Both the position numbers and the translations under genes were made by a program. A DNA stretch of 64,000 nucleotides, from the NCBI GenBank assembly GCA_903864275.1, contig CAIPFE010000014.1, forward strand, positions 248,001 through 312,000. Direction: 5' to 3'. Each line of letters begins with the position of its first letter. Positions within the stretch are counted from its first letter, which is position 1. A model generated the notes under the pieces. The model saw only the letters and a program-made list of their open reading frames with translations, had not been told where the DNA came from and made no database searches. Below, piece after piece: positions 28,201 to 36,003 of this stretch. The DNA comes from an uncultured Mucilaginibacter sp. GTDB lineage: Bacteria > Bacteroidota > Bacteroidia > Sphingobacteriales > Sphingobacteriaceae.

Positions 28201-30057
28201 ATGGCTAAAGTTTCTATCAACCTGGCAACAGGCTCCATACAAAAAGAAGAATTGATCGTCGGCATCGACCTGGGCACCACAAACTCCCTGGTGGCTTTTA
28301 TAAATCCGGATAAAAACGCGCAGGTCATTAATGATATGGGCAAGGGTGTGCTTGTGCCCTCCGTTGTGCATTTCGGCGCGGCAGGAGATATTACTGTGGG
28401 TAACGAAGCGAGGGATTATTTGATCACCGACCCGCAAAACACTGTTTTTTCGGTAAAACGTTTGTTGGGGCGGTCGTATAAGGACATTGAGAATTATAAA
28501 GATTTTTTCTCGTACAAGGTTATTGACGATGACTCGGAAAGCCCGGTAAAAATTAGGGTTGGGGATAAATTTTATACGCCCATTGAGCTTTCATCGCTTA
28601 TATTAAAAGAACTTAAAGCGCGTGCGGAGCACGCCTTGAAAACCCCGGTTAACCGTGCGGTGATTACTGTTCCCGCCTATTTTAACGATTCGCAGCGCCA
28701 GGCTACGCGGGATGCCGGTAAACTGGCCGGTTTGGATGTTTTACGTATTGTTAACGAGCCGACGGCTGCAAGTCTTGCTTATGGTATCGGTTTAAATCCC
28801 GAAGAAACAAAAACGATTGCTGTGTATGACCTCGGCGGGGGTACCTTTGATGTATCCATCCTTCAAATACAAAACGGGATTTTCGAGGTATTATCCACCA
28901 ATGGCAATACCTTTTTAGGCGGTGATGATTTCGACAGCGCCATTGTAGATTACTGGATTGAAAAAAACCAATTGAACAAAGCTGATATCCTCACCGATAA
29001 TAAACTTGCCCAAAAGCTGCGCCTCAAGGCTGAAGAAGCAAAAAAAGCGTTTGCCCATCAAAGTATGGTTAATGATAAGATCGGCGACATTTGGTGCACC
29101 ATTACCCGCGAAACTTTTGAGGGCCTTATTTTGCCAAAGGTGGAAGAAACCATCACGTGCTGTAAAAATGCTTTGAAAGATGCTAAACTGGATATTTTGC
29201 AGATTGACGAAGTAATTATGGTCGGCGGTTCAACCCGCACGGCATTGGTTAAAAAAATGGTGGCTGAATTTTTCGGCCGGCCTGTGCATGACGAGCTTAA
29301 TCCTGATGAAGTGGTTGCTCTCGGCGCGGCCATACAAGCGGATATTTTAGCCGGCAACCGCACAGATATTTTATTGCTGGATGTTACGCCGCTTTCTTTG
29401 GGTATCGAAACTATGGGTGGCCTGATGGATGTGATCATCCCACGTAACTCCAAAGTGCCCACCAAAGCAGGCCGGCAGTACACGACCTCGATTGACGGCC
29501 AGGTAAATATGAAAATAGCCGTTTACCAGGGTGAGCGCGACCTGATCAAAGAAAACCGCAAGCTGGCCGAATTTGATTTGAAAGGCATCCCCTCCATGCC
29601 TGCAGGTTTTCCGAAAGTGGAAATCAACTTTTTGCTGAACGCAGATGGCATTTTAAAGATACAAGCCATGGAGCTGCGCTCCGGTGTAAAACAGGAAGTG
29701 GAAGTAAAACCCACCTACGGTATTACCGACGACCAGGTGGAACAAATGCTGATGGATAGCATCACCCATGCCAAAGACGACGTTAGCCAGCGTATGCTGA
29801 TTGAGGCCCGCACCGAAGGCGAACAAATGGTTTATACCGTTGAGCGCTTTGTGCAAAAGAATACTGATTTCTTATCAGTAGAAGAAGTCGCCGAAACCGA
29901 TCAATACCTAAAAACTTTAAAAGAGGCGCTTAATAGTGGTGAAAAAGATGTGATCCACCACGCCATCGATGCGATAAATGAATTTACCCGGCCTTTCGCC
30001 GAACGTTTGATGGACCAGGCGATAAGTGTTGCGATGAAGGGGAAAAGCGTGGAATAA
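28201..30057 (+). CDS. hscA: Hsp70-family chaperone, HscA type
   Basis: Hsp70 chaperone of 618 residues, the length of HscA rather than DnaK, and lacking the long disordered DnaK tail. The ATPase domain begins after an N-terminal extension typical of HscA ([20 protein letters not shown]) with GIDLGTTNS; later [14 protein letters not shown] and [14 protein letters not shown]. The substrate domain follows at about 390-540. HscA helps transfer iron-sulfur clusters from the scaffold IscU. No isc or hscB gene is adjacent, so this role is inferred from length and N-terminus. The start at 28201 is preferred over the upstream ATG at 28180. Confidence 0.88.
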
Positions 30058-30066
30058 GGAAGAGCT

Positions 30067-30151
30067 GAAAGGTAAAAGGCGAAAGGCAAAAGGTTTTAAA
30101 ACCTCTTTTACTTTTTACCTTTCGCCTTTTTCCTTTTACCTTTCGCCTTTT
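30067..30151. terminator. AAAGGTAAAAGGCG inverted-repeat hairpin after hscA
   Basis: AAAGGTAAAAGGCGAAAGGC and the complementary GCCTTTTACCTTTCGCC-like words fold back on each other with an inner AAGGTTTTAAAACCT palindrome. It begins just after the hscA stop. It is both a repeat-family member and a likely transcription terminator. Confidence 0.6.
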
Positions 30152-30174
30152 AATATATCTTAAAACCACCTGTT

Positions 30175-30222
30175 TTGAAAAATATAAAATTCGCTCCCAT
30201 CCTGTTCTTTTCTTTTTATTTA
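30175..30222 (+). pseudogene. 5' fragment of IS-split secreted-protein gene
   Basis: Sixteen codons from a TTG start: the encoded MKNIKFAPILFFSFYL is the front of a signal peptide. The frame is broken exactly at the end of the 8-bp TTTATTTA that precedes the IS element. Joining base 30222 to 33437 restores one frame with MKNIKFAPILFFSFYLLSHT and then TVFAKKAGC, a complete secretion signal. An in-frame TAA lies at 30151-30153 and no ATG intervenes, so TTG is the only plausible start. Confidence 0.85.
30215..30222. repeat. Left target-site duplication TTTATTTA
   Basis: An 8-bp direct repeat flanking the IS element, identical to 33429-33436. Eight base pairs is the usual IS1595-family duplication. 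Confidence 0.95.
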
Positions 30223-30247
30223 GGCAATGATATATCTATTTACACCA
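30223..30247 (+). repeat. Left terminal inverted repeat
   Basis: Begins GGCAATGATATAT and ends ATTTACACCA. It pairs with 33404-33428 with two mismatches in 25 bp. Confidence 0.95.
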
Positions 30248-30253
30248 GTTTAT

Positions 30254-30285
30254 TTTGTTATTTCAAATCAAGTAGTTTAACTTTG
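30254..30285 (+). promoter_or_regulatory. Bacteroidota-type promoter at the IS left end
   Basis: TTTG at 30254-30257 and TAACTTTG at 30278-30285, 20 bp apart, match the -33/-7 pattern TTTG and TAnnTTTG. It points into the element towards the 69-residue gene whose ATG is 22 bp downstream. Confidence 0.55.
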
Positions 30286-30307
30286 ATTAATAAATAACAA
30301 AGCAATT

Positions 30308-30517
30308 ATGGGATTAATTGAGTTTCAAGCAGCCGTATCACAAATACAGGAAAACAACCCCGATATATTTTATGAAAAAAGGCCGATTATAAGCTACTAT
30401 GCACTTGATCGTGACAGGAGCACAGAAAGTTATAATCTTTCATTATTTGAAAATGATCCGTTACCTGAACATATTCAACAAGCGATCATAGATGTATTCC
30501 TGTTACATTTGCGCTGA
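30308..30517 (+). CDS. Small IS passenger protein, 69 residues
   Basis: Unrecognised 69-residue protein beginning MGLIEFQAAVSQIQENNPDI, with no membrane segment. It is the only plus-strand gene in the element and lies just inside the left terminal repeat, behind a good promoter-like sequence (30254-30285). Its last 43 bp overlap the convergent small gene ending at 30475. A role in the element's life cycle, such as regulation or an antitoxin-like function, is only a guess; the promoter is the main support for it being real. Confidence 0.55.
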   Translation: MGLIEFQAAVSQIQENNPDIFYEKRPIISYYALDRDRSTESYNLSLFENDPLPEHIQQAIIDVFLLHLR

Positions 30518-30693
30518 TCAGAAAAGTAATCGTTAAGGGCCTCTTTTAAAACCCATACAGGTAATGTGGCATATTCTTTCCCATCTTCAAAAGTGAGTTT
30601 AATATTTTCATCGAAAATAGTGAACGCTTCTCCGGTGGTAATAACTCCGTTTAATTTCTCTACGATAATGGTTGATGTTTTTTGATTTTCCAT
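30475..30693 (-). CDS. Small IS passenger protein, 72 residues
   Basis: Unrecognised 72-residue protein starting MENQKTSTIIVEKLNGVITT. The start at 30693 is chosen because the longer frame to 30786 would begin with a low-complexity stretch. The central segment (AFTIFDENIKLTFEDGKEYA) suggests a small beta sheet, followed by a helix (LPVWVLKEALNDYF). It is the last gene on the minus strand of the element, 141 bp after the membrane-protein gene, and overlaps the end of the opposing 69-residue gene. Confidence 0.55.
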   Translation of the reverse strand: MENQKTSTIIVEKLNGVITTGEAFTIFDENIKLTFEDGKEYATLPVWVLKEALNDYFSDQRKCNRNTSMIAC

Positions 30694-30833
30694 ATTGATT
30701 TTTTGATAATAAAATTCTACCTTTGATAAAATCTTATCAAAATCAAATGGTTGTTTGCAGTACTGGCATACTGCAATAATTATCAAATATAATTAATTTT
30801 CACAATAACCGCATGAATGGGTAGTGTCTTTAA

Positions 30834-31334
30834 TTAATATCCTGTTCCGTTAAGCAGTTCCTCCCTTCTTATATCATTAAACTTTTTTAGGGATTTAACT
30901 ATATCCCTTGCAAAAGTCCAGTTTACCCATAATAATAAAAAGCCTAATAGCCACCATTTAAAATCATGGCTGCTATTATCACCCCAATAACCTATGAAAA
31001 GCATTAGAATACTCAAAACACACATAAACGTCACCCATCTTTCCGGGAATTTGTGATTCATCAACGCCCACGTAGGGCAAATCATCGCAATTAAATTAAT
31101 TACACAAGTTGAAATAAATGCTGCTACATACCTTACTAATAGAATAATAGATAGGCCAACTAAAAAAAATAAAATCCAAAAGATCAGCCAAAACATATTT
31201 TCCTTTAGTTTAAAAAATAAAGTAAGCCCATACAAGCATAACCAGTTAAAGCCAGCAAATATCGCCGGGATAACAAAAAACATTACAATTGCGTAGATTG
31301 TAAATCTAATTTTTATTTCAATATGAGCTTTCAT
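30834..31334 (-). CDS. IS passenger membrane protein, four helices
   Basis: A 166-residue integral membrane protein that I do not recognise. Hydrophobic segments lie at about residues 10-34, 45-75, 80-110 and 118-142, followed by a basic cytoplasmic tail (ARDIVKSLKKFNDIRREELL). It starts 30 bp after the P63C gene stop on the same strand and is probably in one transcript with the transposase and P63C genes. No enzyme motif is visible; functions in immunity, transport or maintenance cannot be told apart. Confidence 0.65.
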   Translation of the reverse strand: MKAHIEIKIRFTIYAIVMFFVIPAIFAGFNWLCLYGLTLFFKLKENMFWLIFWILFFLVGLSIILLVRYVAAFISTCVINLIAMICPTWALMNHKFPERWVTFMCVLSILMLFIGYWGDNSSHDFKWWLLGFLLLWVNWTFARDIVKSLKKFNDIRREELLNGTGY

Positions 31335-31364
31335 AATTGGGTAATGAACGTTAAAGAAAAAAGT

Positions 31365-32363
31365 TTATTTTTCCGGTTTTCCGGCCTTTGCAACTGCACC
31401 TAATAGTTTGCCAAAAGGTGCTTTTTCAAGTTTAATTACTGGTTTTTTTGGGGTATCTAATAAATCTTCATTAAATAATTCCTGTTGTCCAAATTTTTTA
31501 TTCCATACTTTTTCAAATTGTTTCCAACTGTCGGAAATGTTCATTAAGGTAACCGTACTAATGATTTGTTTATTTAGATGTTCGATACCCTGCTCCCTTG
31601 TCAAATGTCTATGTAAATGGGTTTTTAATTTACCTTTATCATTTCGTTCTGTTTTATCTAATAATGCCTGTAAAACACCTTTTGGCAGTACCGAGTAGAT
31701 ATATTTTTTTGTCCAAGTTCCAATAATTCCAGGCCTTGAAGTTATTTGTGAAGGAGTGAAACTCCAGTTATTTAACCTGAATATTTCTCTATAAAATTCA
31801 TCTGGAAAGCGTTTCCCCCATGCCAATAATTCCTCTGAAATATAAGCCTTGAGTATTTTTTGTAGTTCATCCTTTTCGCGATCAAATTGGTATCCGGTAG
31901 CTTCGTCAACGAGCGCAATAATACCAATAGTAGCAAAACCCCTTACTAATATTTCGCATCGTTTTGCTATCGCTATTTGCGAGTTATTTAAAGCAGCGTT
32001 TTTTTCAGCATCGATAAAAACATAACATACAGACGGCAAAATTTCAGCCTTATACCCGTATGCCATTCTACCACCGGGAAGTTCAAAAATGATAGGTTGT
32101 GAAGACGTGATTAGTTCACTATTAATGAACGGTTTAAGGTTATTTGCACTTAAAAAAAGAGGTAACTTGAAGACCTGATTTTCGCCTCCATCCGTCAAGT
32201 CTTCTTTATATTTTGGCTTTCCGGTTCTACCCATTACCCTTAAAAATCCTTCACGAGCTAACACTCTTTCACCAGTATTAAGGTTATAGGCACGGATTTC
32301 AAAATCACCAATTTTCAGGATACCAGTATAAGTGGCCTTTGGTATGTTTTGTTCTTTACTCAT
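31365..32363 (-). CDS. P63C-domain protein, IS passenger
   Basis: A 332-residue protein with the P63C domain, a domain known from phage and mobile-element proteins. Recognisable parts are the N-terminal GDFEIRAYNLNTGERVLAREGFLRVMGR, the middle YVFIDAEKNAALNNSQIAIAKRCEILVRGFA, and the C-terminal half with RFPDEFYREIFRLNNW. The ATG overlaps the transposase stop in an ATGA, so it is translationally coupled to transposition. The biochemical function of P63C is unknown to me. The C-terminal region also contains a basic TREQGIEHLNKQII segment. Confidence 0.85.
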   Translation of the reverse strand: MSKEQNIPKATYTGILKIGDFEIRAYNLNTGERVLAREGFLRVMGRTGKPKYKEDLTDGGENQVFKLPLFLSANNLKPFINSELITSSQPIIFELPGGRMAYGYKAEILPSVCYVFIDAEKNAALNNSQIAIAKRCEILVRGFATIGIIALVDEATGYQFDREKDELQKILKAYISEELLAWGKRFPDEFYREIFRLNNWSFTPSQITSRPGIIGTWTKKYIYSVLPKGVLQALLDKTERNDKGKLKTHLHRHLTREQGIEHLNKQIISTVTLMNISDSWKQFEKVWNKKFGQQELFNEDLLDTPKKPVIKLEKAPFGKLLGAVAKAGKPEK

Positions 32364-33346
32364 TTTATCAACTCCTTATAAGTTAAACGACCAACAACGT
32401 TAGCCAAAATTAAATCAAATCTGCCGGAAGTAGTCATTTTTCGGGTGTTAAAACGCAATGAAAATTCATTAACATAAGCAGGAAGATGCTCTGTTGAAAC
32501 CCAATGATAAATACCGTCAACACCTCTTTTTAAATGGCTCCAAAAGTTTTCTACACCGTTAGTATATGCCATTTCGTTAACATATTCCTTAGCACCGTGA
32601 TTGACTTTAGCGTGTTGGTATTCTTTATCTAATCCGTTGTATGAACTGTATTCGTCAGTAATGATAGTTGACGTTGTGGTAATATTTTCCTTAATGATGG
32701 GATGGATTGTTTCGGCTTTGGTATCGCCTACTACTTCACATTTGATAACAGAAAGTGATTTGATAACCTTCTCTTTTACGATCTTATCGGCTATAACTTT
32801 GTGAGGGCGTTCTACTATTTCAGAAACTTCTCTTTGCAACATTCCGATAACAGGCGTTTTAGTATCGTTGTTGCGGCCTCTCTTATGGCTCTTTTTATGC
32901 TCATGCTTGTTCTTATCTTCACCGCCCATATATGTTTCATCTATCTCAACAATACCCTCAAATTCGGCCTTAAAAGATGCGCTGTTAAAAGCAAAACGCA
33001 AACGGTGAAGTATAAACCATGCTGTTTTTTGGGTTACGTCAATATCCTTAGATAACTGGTGACTTGATATACCTTTCTTATGGCTTGAAAATACGTATAA
33101 AGCCATGTACCATTTGATCAATGGTATCTTAGTATCTTCAAATATTGTACCTACCTTAGCAGTAAAGTATTTGCCTGTATTCTTACATTTGTATTTGTTC
33201 CCGACACATTTATAAACTTTGCTTGTTTTGTCAAACGGAGAAACAACAACACCGTTCCAACGCATTTCAGCAAGGTAATCCATGCAGGTTTGTTCATCCG
33301 GGAACGCTTTAACTAAATCTAAGATGCTTTTGAAGTCGAAATCCAT
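32360..33346 (-). CDS. IS1595-family (ISXO2-like) transposase
   Basis: DDE-type transposase of 328 residues. The N-terminal region (about 20-120) has the family's short Cys-containing motif (KVYKCVGNKYKCKNTGKYF) and helix-turn-helix (SHQLSKDIDVTQKTAWFILHRLR). The catalytic core holds D136 in GIVEIDETYMGG, D231 in TIITDEYSSYNG, and E266/N267 in NGVENFWSHLKRG. The frame is intact, so the enzyme is probably active. A TAnnTTTG-like box (TAAATTTG, complement of 33394-33401) lies between the right terminal repeat and the start codon. The P63C gene overlaps its end. Confidence 0.95.
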   Translation of the reverse strand: MDFDFKSILDLVKAFPDEQTCMDYLAEMRWNGVVVSPFDKTSKVYKCVGNKYKCKNTGKYFTAKVGTIFEDTKIPLIKWYMALYVFSSHKKGISSHQLSKDIDVTQKTAWFILHRLRFAFNSASFKAEFEGIVEIDETYMGGEDKNKHEHKKSHKRGRNNDTKTPVIGMLQREVSEIVERPHKVIADKIVKEKVIKSLSVIKCEVVGDTKAETIHPIIKENITTTSTIITDEYSSYNGLDKEYQHAKVNHGAKEYVNEMAYTNGVENFWSHLKRGVDGIYHWVSTEHLPAYVNEFSLRFNTRKMTTSGRFDLILANVVGRLTYKELIK

Positions 33347-33403
33347 AACTGTAATGATTATGGTGTAAATATCGACATAATAAAATTAAGAAACAAATTT
33401 ATT

Positions 33404-33428
33404 TGGTGTAAATTTATATATCATTGCC
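33404..33428 (-). repeat. Right terminal inverted repeat
   Basis: Inverse of 30223-30247 with two mismatches in 25 bp. A second copy of its inner motif GGTGTAAAT lies at 33363-33371, probably another transposase contact. Confidence 0.95.
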
Positions 33429-33436
33429 TTTATTTA
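33429..33436. repeat. Right target-site duplication TTTATTTA
   Basis: Identical to 30215-30222 on the other side of the element. Confidence 0.95.
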
Positions 33437-34387
33437 TTAAGCCATACGACGGTCTTTGCAAAAAAGGCGGGCTGCGTAAAATTTACAGACACTACCCGCA
33501 AGCCTTTAGATACCTTGCTGTATGATTCGCTGATGCGCAGGCTCGCCAATGGCGATAAAACAGGTAAATGGCCGGTAAAAAAAGCGCCGCGCCCGCTGCC
33601 GGGTGCTATTTTGCCGTTTTATAGGGTGGTGGCTTATTATGGCAATATGTACTCGAAGAACATGGGGGTATTGGGCGAATACAGGCCAAAAGTGATGCTG
33701 GCCAAGCTGCAGGCCGAGGTAAAGGTTTGGGAGAAGGCGGATACATCAACACCCGTAAAGCCTGCACTGCATTATATATGCGTCACGGCCCAGGCAGCTG
33801 CAGGCAGCAATGGCCTGCATAACCTGCGGATGCCGTTTAAGCAAATAGACAGCGTGATCCACATGGCGCACTCCATAAACGCTATCATTTTCCTGGACCT
33901 GCAGGTTGGCTTTAGTACCGTACAAACAGAAGTACCACGGCTCGAAAAATATCTGCAGATGCCCGATGTACATTTAGGTATTGACCCTGAATTTTCGATG
34001 AAGGAAGGCAGTGTCCCGGGCAAACGGATTGGCACTTTTGATGCCGCCGATATAAATTACGTAAGCCAGTACCTTGCGGATATTGCTAAAAAATACAACC
34101 TGCCGCCAAAAATATTTGTGGTACACCGCTTTACGCAAAAGATGGTGACCAACTATCAAAACATTAAATTACACCCCGAAGTACAGTTTGTGATGGACAT
34201 GGATGGCTGGGGCGGCGTGCGGTTGAAACAGGATACCTATCATTATATTACCGCCCACGAGCCGGTGCAATTTACCGGCTTTAAACTATTCTATAAAAAT
34301 GATATTACAAAAGATAAGCACCGGATGCTAACCCCGAAAGAGGTCTTGCAGCTGAAGCCTGTACCTGTTTATATTCAATACCAGTAG
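33437..34387 (+). pseudogene. 3' fragment of IS-split secreted protein
   Basis: Open frame from the IS junction to the TAG at 34387 (316 codons). It carries the end of the signal peptide (LLSHTTVFA), then about 300 residues with the order of an alpha/beta barrel: AILPFYRVVAYYGN, ALHYICVTAQAAAGSNG, AIIFLDLQVGFS, HLGIDPEFSM, PKIFVVHRFTQKM and QFVMDMDGWGG. Similar secreted proteins occur in other phyla without assigned function. The insertion removes the secretion signal and natural start, so the gene is inactive unless an internal start such as 33515 is used, which would give a cytoplasmic product. Confidence 0.85.
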
Positions 34388-34414
34388 TGGGTGAAAGGTA
34401 AAAGGCAACCCAAA

Positions 34415-34459
34415 GACCGACTTACGAAGTTTTAAAAACTTCGTAAGCCTGAATCGGTC
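34415..34459. terminator. Long hairpin between convergent genes
   Basis: Inner palindrome CTTACGAAGTTTT...AACTTCGTAAG (34421-34447) with an outer GACCGA / TCGGTC pair (34415-34420, 34454-34459). It sits between the split gene and the convergent 96-residue gene. Confidence 0.65.
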
Positions 34460-34470
34460 CGTGTAAAACC

Positions 34471-34761
34471 CTAAATCTTATCAATCGCTTCCTGTTCTTT
34501 CAGTGCCGCAATGTTATTTTTATCACTGAAGGTTTCAGTTTGTGTGGCAAAATCTTCCAATATCCCTGCTATAGCATCCAGGTTATCTGCTACGCGCTGG
34601 TGCATATCGGGCAAATCTTTTTCGAGCCTTTTATTCCCAAGCTCCATATTATCCACTTCTATTTTCGATAATTTTACCATAATGGCCTGCTGACTGTTTT
34701 TCAAATCGTCCAATTCATTAACGATCTTTTCCATTAACCCGAATTTCTTTAACTTATCCAT
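34471..34761 (-). CDS. Small coiled-coil protein
   Basis: A 96-residue soluble protein that is helical throughout with heptad spacing: MEKIVNELDDLKNSQQAIMV, then KLSKIEVDNMELGNKRLEKDLPDMHQRV. It likely forms a coiled coil. The start at MDKLKKFGL (34761) avoids eleven upstream residues of unusual composition in the longer frame. No function is recognised. It is divergent from the TPR-protein gene, 93 bp away. Confidence 0.7.
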   Translation of the reverse strand: MDKLKKFGLMEKIVNELDDLKNSQQAIMVKLSKIEVDNMELGNKRLEKDLPDMHQRVADNLDAIAGILEDFATQTETFSDKNNIAALKEQEAIDKI

Positions 34762-34854
34762 AATGTTGTTCTTTTGTTTATGGTGATAGAACACTATTTG
34801 GCATAAAATGTTTGAAAATTTGGATATATCATTTATAACTAATAATTTAGTTAT

Positions 34855-36003
34855 ATGAAAAGTATCCTCCTTTTTCTCGCGGTATTTTCCTCAACTATCT
34901 CTGTATTCGCACAGCAAAACCAAAAGGCTGATGATGCTTTATTATTAGATTATTACCAAAACCAGCATTTTGCGGAAGCTGCTGATTATCTAAAAAAGAC
35001 CTACCCCGAACCGGTTACTGATGTAAAAATTTTATCAAGCCTTGCCTATGCATCCTCGATGGCCGGGCGGCTGCCCGATGCCGATGGCTATTACCAGCGC
35101 ATTTATGCCACTGATACCACCAACAATGCAATACTGTTTAACCTGGGCAGCATCAATGCCCGGCGCGGGGATAATATAAAGGCCCTTAGCTTTTACAAAA
35201 AGATATTGATAAGGGACAGTACCAATTTCAATGTCTATAAACAAATGGCAACCTTGTCACAAAACACCGGGAACGTACTGGATGCCGTCACCTATCTAAT
35301 AAAGGCAAATAAAATTAACCCCGTTGAGCCGGATGTGGCTTATGACCTTACTTCGTTCTACATCAACCTTAAACTTTATAAAAAAGCCGACACTGTAGTT
35401 AATGCCGCCTTGGAAGCAGATACCGCAAACCTGTTGCTCCTGCTTGGCAAGGCGGAAATTGATTACCGCCTTGAAAAATACCCCGAAACAGTTGTAGTAT
35501 GCAACAAACTTATACAATCCGGCGACCAGATCAGTATAGTCATCAGTATGCTGGGCACATCTTATTTTAACTTAAGAAATTACACCAGCTGCATCAACAC
35601 CTTCAAGCTTTTGGAACAAAGCAAAACATCCACCGAAACTTCTTATTATTATACTGCGATGAGTTACAAGGCATTAGGCGGCCAACCTACAGCGCTTATT
35701 TATTTTGATAAAGCCATAAAAGAGGCCATGTCAGGAAACGTAAACTCGTATTACGGCGAAATGGCCGGTGCTTACGATAAAATGCACCAGGTAAAAAAGG
35801 CTATAAATGCTTATCAAAAAAGTTTGTTGTATGGTGTTATGCCCTTAACCTATTACGCCCTGGCTAATTTGTACGATACGGAATTGAAGGACAAGGCGCA
35901 GGCTTTGCGTTATTACAAAAAGTATGTAGGGAGTAATCCGCCGGAAGAACAGCGGTCGTATGTAACTTATTCCAAGGCGCGGGAAAGGGAATTAGGCCGT
36001 TAG
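34855..36003 (+). CDS. Periplasmic TPR-repeat protein
   Basis: Exported scaffold-like protein of 382 residues. The signal peptide is residues 1-19 (MKSILLFLAVFSSTISVFAQ). Tetratricopeptide helices fill the rest, for example AILFNLGSINARRGDNIKAL, NFNVYKQMATLSQNTGNVLD and PLTYYALANLYDTELKDKAQ. TPR proteins mediate protein binding; the partner is unknown. Its stop lies inside the last codons of the convergent ribE gene, a 4-bp overlap. It has no enzyme motif. Confidence 0.9.
   Translation: MKSILLFLAVFSSTISVFAQQNQKADDALLLDYYQNQHFAEAADYLKKTYPEPVTDVKILSSLAYASSMAGRLPDADGYYQRIYATDTTNNAILFNLGSINARRGDNIKALSFYKKILIRDSTNFNVYKQMATLSQNTGNVLDAVTYLIKANKINPVEPDVAYDLTSFYINLKLYKKADTVVNAALEADTANLLLLLGKAEIDYRLEKYPETVVVCNKLIQSGDQISIVISMLGTSYFNLRNYTSCINTFKLLEQSKTSTETSYYYTAMSYKALGGQPTALIYFDKAIKEAMSGNVNSYYGEMAGAYDKMHQVKKAINAYQKSLLYGVMPLTYYALANLYDTELKDKAQALRYYKKYVGSNPPEEQRSYVTYSKARERELGR

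Follow-up and report, generated by a model that had tools for sequence, protein, structure and literature searches.

An IS1595-family transposon of Mucilaginibacter whose second gene appears to join exchangeable fronts to a transposase-matched tail

Introduction

Members of the IS1595 family of insertion sequences usually carry a single transposase gene, and in all IS1595 groups except IS1016 an N-terminal zinc finger is present, according to the portion of PMC8101967 that describes them. One described element, tISCpe8, carries lincomycin resistance, as a title cited in PMC5704250 indicates. A second point of comparison is the phage protein BstA, which the main text of PMC8585504 (Owen et al. 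2021) presents as an abortive-infection protein with a KilA-N-like front, encoded commonly after the repressor. Here we describe an IS1595-family transposon of 3,206 base pairs (bp) at positions 30223-33428 of a 64,000-nucleotide stretch (the window) from an uncultured Mucilaginibacter sp. (assembly GCA_903864275.1, contig CAIPFE010000014.1, positions 248,001 to 312,000), and in particular the gene that follows its transposase gene, here called gene B. An earlier note on this DNA had described a complete, recently inserted element with five genes; what is new beyond it is a modular P63C gene and a tail common to unrelated partner proteins.

Among the titles and abstract openings listed by searches of an open-licence library, none dealt with a second gene or a tail conserved in elements of the IS1595 family (the founding paper, Siguier 2009, and ISfinder lay outside this search), and none of the papers listed for the whole word “P63C” concerned transposons by title.

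Results

Gene B of the window

Gene B encodes a protein of 332 amino acids (aa) on the minus strand (31365-32363), and its start overlaps the transposase stop by 4 bp (ATGA). Because the start sits inside the stop codon, transposase and gene B are probably made together. The protein matched the Pfam P63C family (PF10546; 6.3e-25, 88 bits, above the cut-off of 26.1) and phrog_2384 (1.6e-98), a P63C family that carries no function in PHROGs. The P63C domain takes its name from p63 of the Myxococcus phage Mx8.

An AlphaFold2 model built from 62 sequences (mean pLDDT 84.4) contains, in order, a mixed N-terminal domain, a helical P63C part, a disordered linker of low confidence and a separate helix at residues 317-326. 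This helix, predicted at low confidence, lies in the C-terminal tail, APFGKLLGAVAKAGKPEK (residues 315-332; 31368-31421, minus strand). The N-terminal domain is possibly of the Bro-N/KilA-N kind. A Pfam scan of the protein gave no Bro-N and no KilA-N match, no PDB relative was found by sequence and Foldseek returned no match at 0.001. With VIA-align the N-terminal part matched the N-terminal domain of granulovirus Orf22 (Z about 6.0, 3.4 A over 96), the N-terminal domain of DdrC (Z 4.8), Ski/Dachshund (Z 3.5-4.1) and Mbp1/PCG2 (Z 2.3-2.7); all of these matches (Z 6.1 to 2.3) lie under the tool's caution line of Z 8, below which a match may reflect a common arrangement, and this list rules out no fold. 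In a viral structure library the best named match of gene B was p63 of phage Mx8 (4.7e-7), with Bro-N and repressor-like proteins at 0.01 and weaker.

A varying front before a tail that tracks the transposase

We compared the genes downstream of 60 IS1595 transposases (40 plus 20 examined; loci, genomes and contigs are numbered with the prefixes L, G and C). For the hand-picked tests and the transposase tree, 34 of the 60 rows were used, chosen because the open reading frame (ORF) following the transposase ended tail-like by eye; the gene B of L120 was added by hand, and L067 and L068 have doubtful tails. The other 26 rows were broken or cut (L061, L062, L077, L107, L123), duplicates (L162, L177), tail-like but unsure (L063, L171), or had another gene B or none (L071B, L075, L124, L126, L161, L164-L167, L169, L170, L172-L176, L178).

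In 26 of 40 loci, no more than 9 bases separate the start of the chosen gene B ORF from the stop of the transposase gene; 14 of the 26 show the ATGA overlap. Many of these proteins end in a common tail, about 18 residues long, whose form tracks the transposase clade. It reads FGxLLGAVxxAGKP in the clade of the window, and LSxFNxxLxxALNYNPKK, SGNKxLDxAI and FxxLLxxLxxVPPPKK in a second, third and fourth clade, respectively. The front, on the other hand, varies. It is P63C in the window, L009, L010, L056, L059, L071A, L072, L073 and L119, KilA-N in L057 (Pfam 1.7e-19) and Bro-N in L109 (4.8e-8). The gene B of L066 (4600-5454, in contig C7 of genome G025) joins a Bro-N front (2.2e-22) to a BstA-like C-terminal half (phrog_6287, 8.3e-18) and the tail of its transposase clade. 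The 8-bp flanks of the L066 element differ at 5 positions. In L058, L118 and L120 the N-terminal domain stands alone as the front, a label given by eye (L118 has a weak phrog_2384 match, 0.007). The remaining form is minimal: in 16 of the 34 rows gene B is 43-71 aa long, with a short, mostly lysine-rich stretch before the tail, and the isoelectric point (pI) is at least 8.0 in all 16.

Pairwise comparisons illustrate both halves of this pattern. Between the window and its nearest relative, L071A, the transposases are 87% identical, the bodies 47% and the tails 18/18. Between the window and L059 the P63C bodies are closer (63%) than the transposases (49%), and the tails agree at 4/15. The window (P63C) and L057 (KilA-N) share 14 of 19 tail positions while their bodies score 0.02 of self. 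On the transposase tree, where some labels were given by eye, the six body labels need at least 8 changes. For the P63C label alone the number is 7, and 5 of these are forced by well-supported branches. The labels of L058, L118, L120, L121, L159 and L160 are partly by eye, those of L159 and L160 without Pfam support. By these sequence comparisons gene B appears to be modular, with a C-terminal tail that follows the transposase lineage and a front that is swapped among P63C, KilA-N, Bro-N, Bro-N plus BstA-like, and bare basic forms.

Co-inheritance of tail and transposase

To exclude picking by eye, a fixed rule was applied to the 60 transposases; 51 had an ORF, and 49 rows were left after two duplicates were removed. 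In these, likeness of tails correlated with likeness of transposases (rho 0.32; 0 of 1000 permutations as high), and the correlation held when only pairs whose bodies are unlike (1,097 of 1,176) were considered (rho 0.29; 1 of 1000). A set of 18 gene Bs of full size, chosen by eye, gave a rho of 0.43 (0 of 1000). No such relation to the transposase was seen for the P63C bodies themselves (9 rows, rho -0.08; 1211 of 2000 permutations). In 37 pairs the transposases were alike (>0.6) and the bodies were not. Of these pairs, 18 had a tail score above 40, the maximum of 3,000 shuffles, and in 11 of those 18 at least one gene B is full-size. The other 7 are minimal-minimal pairs, which tell little about swapping because the 30-residue tail spans most of a minimal protein.

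The viral P63C set, made up of the best 80 loci of a longer list plus L158 and scored by alignment of protein ends against known tails, gave a corresponding picture. Of these 81 P63C genes, 8 stand immediately behind an IS1595 transposase gene of the same strand, and 6 of the 8 end in the tail (score 63-74); the remaining 75 proteins score no higher than 31. With near-copies removed (L179 and L180 seem to be copies of a single element), the tail was present in 5 of 7 genes after a transposase and in 0 of 53 others (Fisher 3.8e-6). It was also absent from all 15 aligned P63C proteins that do not follow a transposase (L011-L013, L071B, L074, L075, L104, L127-L129 and L149-L153, L152 being short).

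Codon comparisons bear on what is conserved in the tail. In the tail codons, the window shows 6 silent and 0 changing differences from L071A, 10 and 4 from L056, and 8 and 5 from L057. Across 19 tail pairs, silent changes exceed changing ones in 12, including all three with the window, and are equal or fewer in the other 7. By these counts the tail is conserved at the protein level in the window's clade. A conserved DNA site in place of a peptide is less likely, because silent changes outnumber changing ones in every pair with the window.

A second alternative is that gene B is an ordinary passenger and that its tail is the relic 3' end of a gene whose middle is exchanged by recombination, with no docking on the transposase. 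Swaps have clearly occurred and would leave both ends in place, and the tail is missing from two P63C genes that follow a transposase (L226 and L229). The excess of silent changes in those 12 tail pairs is at odds with a relic, however, as is the persistence of stand-alone gene B forms of 43-71 aa in 16 of 34 rows, and we give this explanation a slim chance.

Gene B as a possible partner of the transposase

The simplest account, which we put at even odds and ahead of the alternatives, is that gene B partners the transposase, with a tail that docks on the enzyme and a front that binds DNA or senses phage. Through its short helix, carried on a flexible linker, the tail would bind the cognate transposase, as co-inheritance suggests. 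The front would bind DNA; the Bro-N and KilA-N members, the middling fold likeness of the N-terminal part and the lysine-rich minimal forms all point to this. It would probably act on the element's own ends or promoter, setting the timing and amount of movement. Phage regulator and immunity domains (P63C, KilA-N, Bro-N and BstA-like) appear to have been placed repeatedly before the tail, perhaps coupling the element to phage or prophage activity.

Several observations weigh against this proposal. Co-inheritance is the one line of evidence from which we infer docking of the tail on the transposase, and the confidence of the model is low over the tail helix (block means 55-67). In the 9 full P63C rows taken by themselves the correlation of tail and transposase is weak (rho 0.20; 212 of 2000 permutations), and tail scores stay within the shuffle range in 19 of the 37 pairs that combine similar transposases with dissimilar bodies. 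The P63C genes of L226 and L229 directly follow a more distant IS1595 transposase and have no tail, so pairing does not always need one. Many more-distant IS1595 transposases in the second set of 20 show no such gene B. The fusion of tail and body could also persist merely because swaps keep the 3' end.

If the front does bind DNA, one might ask whether gene B selects the target site, the swapped front setting the landing place. Target-selector subunits are known in Tn7-like elements, and gene B has a swappable part, with a DNA-binding domain in several members, joined to a tail that follows the transposase lineage. On the other hand, duplications beside different bodies look alike, and AT-rich ones flank elements of several body types (TTTATTTA in the window, with P63C; TTAAATGA in L057, with KilA-N; AAAATTAA both in L056, with P63C, and in L110, with a minimal form), though the duplication CCCAAGAG in L060 is not AT-rich. 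On this comparison target selection would have a slimmer chance still than a relic tail.

P63C proteins of phages and the comparison with BstA

Relatives of the P63C protein were found in 47 phage records and 16 plasmid records, among them temperate phages, streptococcal satellite phages and plasmids; judging by these matches, the P63C part of gene B is a temperate-phage protein. The P63C gene of the Salmonella phage SPN9CC (Lederbergvirus; L149 3671-4900) comes immediately behind cI and is followed on its strand by an N-like gene. This is the same cI-to-N-like place that bstA occupies in the Lederbergvirus BTP1, and by position the P63C gene of SPN9CC is a candidate phage immunity gene. In the Erwinia phage Midgardsormr38 the P63C gene follows an annotated transcriptional regulator and stands beside an XRE and a CII-like gene, and in the Gordonia phage Petra it is near a repressor and an integrase. 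In the Burkholderia phage DC1 it comes after a repressor, a nuclease and RecT, beside an integrase, and in SEN34 it has a different position. When the genes upstream of 49 viral P63C genes were compared with known families, 64 families were matched; repressors and regulators ranked among the commonest, with just 2-3 members each, so that a rule of “always next to a repressor” is unsupported.

These positions bear on the main alternative to a transposase partner, namely that the transposon carries gene B as an anti-phage protein of the BstA type, which would block invading phage DNA and so let the element earn its keep, and whose tail would tie its amount or place to the transposase. The bstA place of the SPN9CC gene and the position after a regulator in Midgardsormr38 are consistent with this, as is the BstA-family match in the C-terminal half of the L066 gene B. 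The cargo of other elements likewise includes a SocA/Panacea protein next to one of 148 aa (L071A), a C5 methylase (L056), a PemK-like protein (L063) and a Fic protein (L069). Against it, the P63C gene is not directly behind the repressor in SEN34 and DC1. P63C is not recognisable as a known defence protein, with no PADLOC match (best 0.034) and a value of 0.042 for NCBIfam DS41_1 (12.8 bits against a cut-off of 370). Nor is it recognisable as a BstA homologue: no significant alignment was obtained and the hhalign probability was 2%. Since homology is not detectable, the likeness of P63C and BstA is one of place and not of sequence. The bare basic forms of gene B, finally, have no recognised immunity domain, which makes immunity unlikely as the shared function of gene B. 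We consider anti-phage cargo unlikely, though likelier than a relic tail or target selection.

The element and its transposase

The transposon begins with GGCAATG at 30223 and has the complementary end at 33428. Terminal inverted repeats (TIRs) of IS1595-family elements start with GG. The two 25-bp TIRs, at the far (cargo) end (30223-30247, plus strand) and the transposase end (33404-33428, minus strand), match at 23/25 positions. The element is flanked by two copies of the 8-bp target duplication TTTATTTA (30215-30222 and 33429-33436). A scan of window positions 29001-35000 for end pairs, with at least 15/20 of the first 20 bp alike and no more than one mismatch in the 8-bp duplication, gave the 30223/33428 pair alone, and the genome holds a single full copy. 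The unit, its TIRs with two mismatches, its duplication and its intact transposase are thus as the earlier note had them. The insertion looks fresh, as that note also proposed, with an exact duplication and an intact enzyme, and related copies terminate in the same sequence: the cargo-end 25 bp are identical at G030 C135:22247-22271, and the transposase-end 25 bp equal the left end of L071 3735. The G+C content is 34.0% in the element and 43.2% in the rest of the window. The composition is therefore AT-rich, as claimed; the foreign source drawn from it is not shown, the three nearest transposases among those compared (87%, 72% and 71% identical) all coming from the same genus.

Between the TIR and the transposase start lies a second copy of the inner TIR motif, ATATTTACACCA (33361-33381, minus strand; direct repeat D5, 76%). 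In a comparison of 12 elements, for 10 of which the first 110 bases on the transposase side were seen, the motif is present twice in direct orientation in the window, L071A, L056, L057 and L009, and the second copy is inverted, as TTGGTGTAA, in L066 and L072. The repeat at 33361-33381 is a candidate binding site through which transposase or gene B could regulate the element itself.

The transposase (328 aa; 32360-33346, minus strand) matched Pfam DDE_Tnp_IS1595 (1.9e-40; 138.8 bits, cut-off 27) and NCBIfam IS1595 (1.1e-62; 211.7 bits, cut-off 75). The domain, the 8-bp duplication and the TIRs of the family are all present. The motifs IDETYMGG at 135, ITDEYSSY at 229 and NGVENFWSH at 263 contain what we take to be the catalytic D, D and E. 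The zinc ribbon scored 16.8 bits, under its cut-off of 25.4; SPFD replaces the first cysteine pair, and Cys47 and Cys54 are retained.

Related stretches were found by DNA search in 18 of 100 related genomes, and relatives of the P63C protein in 13 of 149 genus genomes, the window's own genome being included in both counts. Among 38 transposase loci in the fetched stretches, the window included, 31 have ends at least 19/25 alike and an exact 8-bp duplication, and these bounded elements are 2.2 to 6.9 kb long. The nearest is L071A (L071 3735-6881, genome G137), with ends 24/25 alike and an intact 8-bp duplication.

Other IS1595 elements offered further observations. The window's own genome holds two more complete elements of other clades with exact 8-bp duplications (L068 4299-7361 in C46; L069 3617-7212 in C10). 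In L069, L110, L115, L122 and L123 a protein of 157-213 aa, one family by eye, is encoded divergently from the transposase; that of L110 has a weak HEPN_Apea match (0.0034). In another clade an XRE-type helix-turn-helix ORF stands at the transposase stop (L075 3246-3455, HTH_3 1.1e-6; L167, by eye), and L075 has a divergent P63C gene.

Variable cargo and the insertion site

Three further ORFs lie between gene B and the cargo end. A 166-aa membrane protein (30834-31334, minus strand) has no family over cut-off and four predicted hydrophobic segments, in agreement with the four-helix protein of the earlier note. A 72-aa ORF of uncertain coding status (30475-30693, minus strand) has no family match, and its 3' end overlaps by 43 bp an ORF for a 69-aa protein on the opposite strand (30308-30517, plus strand). 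Among the 149 genus genomes, the own genome included, relatives of the membrane protein occur in 3 others and of the 69-aa protein in 5 others. The 72-aa ORF may not be a real gene, because none of the other 148 genomes has a relative of it. Elsewhere in the window's own genome, a 34-bp stretch at G000 C14:36545-36578, 91% like the region upstream of the 72-aa ORF, precedes a small ORF reading MENETVKPIKIKV.

The earlier note had asked whether the five genes travel as a set. They do not: only the P63C gene recurs beside the transposase. A travelling unit is ruled out by the relative counts (3, 5 and 0 genomes) and by the transposase-free neighbourhoods, as no such transposase stands beside the relatives of the membrane and 69-aa proteins in the fetched stretches (L141-L147, L065). 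A related membrane protein is cargo of a different IS1595 element (L071 11274-11777, inside L071 7198-11896); it matches the relatives in L141 (8e-5) and L065 (9e-5) and has no direct match to the protein of the window. L009 carries an HNH protein as cargo. The transposon is thus a two-gene core with variable cargo, the membrane protein and the two small ORFs being drawn from a changing pool.

The element has split a host gene within its signal peptide. The 5' piece (30175-30222, plus strand) has a TTG start and is signal-peptide-like, and the 3' piece (33437-34387, plus strand) joins it in an open frame. When the unit and one copy of the duplication were excised in silico, a single open frame for a 332-aa host protein resulted. 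Relatives of this protein occur in 147 of 149 genus genomes, the own genome included, and that of the nearest other genome is 91% identical over residues 1-332. Immediately left of the insertion (30060-30152) are short direct and inverted repeats with a GGTAAAAGGCGAAAGG-like motif.

Discussion

The comparisons could describe an IS1595 clade with a second subunit that has so far gone unrecognised. Its essential part would be a short docking helix, specific to the transposase lineage, which can function by itself as a very small basic protein and which has acquired phage regulator and immunity domains repeatedly; the transposition machinery would thereby carry an exchangeable phage-sensing or DNA-binding module. 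We offer this general picture tentatively and put it somewhat below even chances. If it is true, a conserved partner with a swappable front and a matched tail adds a component to the IS1595 picture, and the natural domain-swap pairs would let regulation, targeting or defence be tested directly. A role is also proposed for P63C: its occurrence where a temperate phage can have bstA, and its capture by transposons, make it a testable candidate immunity or regulatory protein.

Several known systems resemble parts of this one. Bro-N/KilA-N DNA-binding domains are resembled by the predicted N-terminal part of gene B at middling Z, without a Pfam match. The P63C phage proteins of phrog_2384 are homologous to gene B over about 290 of its 332 residues; in several phages the gene is near a repressor or integrase, and the aligned phage and plasmid copies lack the tail. 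BstA, like gene B, is a two-part phage protein with a KilA-N-like front; it occupies the corresponding site in Lederbergvirus and recurs as the BstA-like half of the L066 gene B. In contrast, it has no sequence likeness to the P63C protein of the window, and the word transposase is absent from the main text of PMC8585504. Among the passenger-carrying IS1595 forms (tIS; tISCpe8, MTnSag1), the same transposase domain, inverted ends, 8-bp duplication and passengers are found, as far as PMC5704250 describes them; tISCpe8 has lincomycin resistance, whereas a Pfam scan recognised no resistance gene in the window element. Compared with the usual one-gene IS1595 element, the clade sampled here commonly has a second gene at the transposase stop, and this gene ends in a lineage-specific tail.

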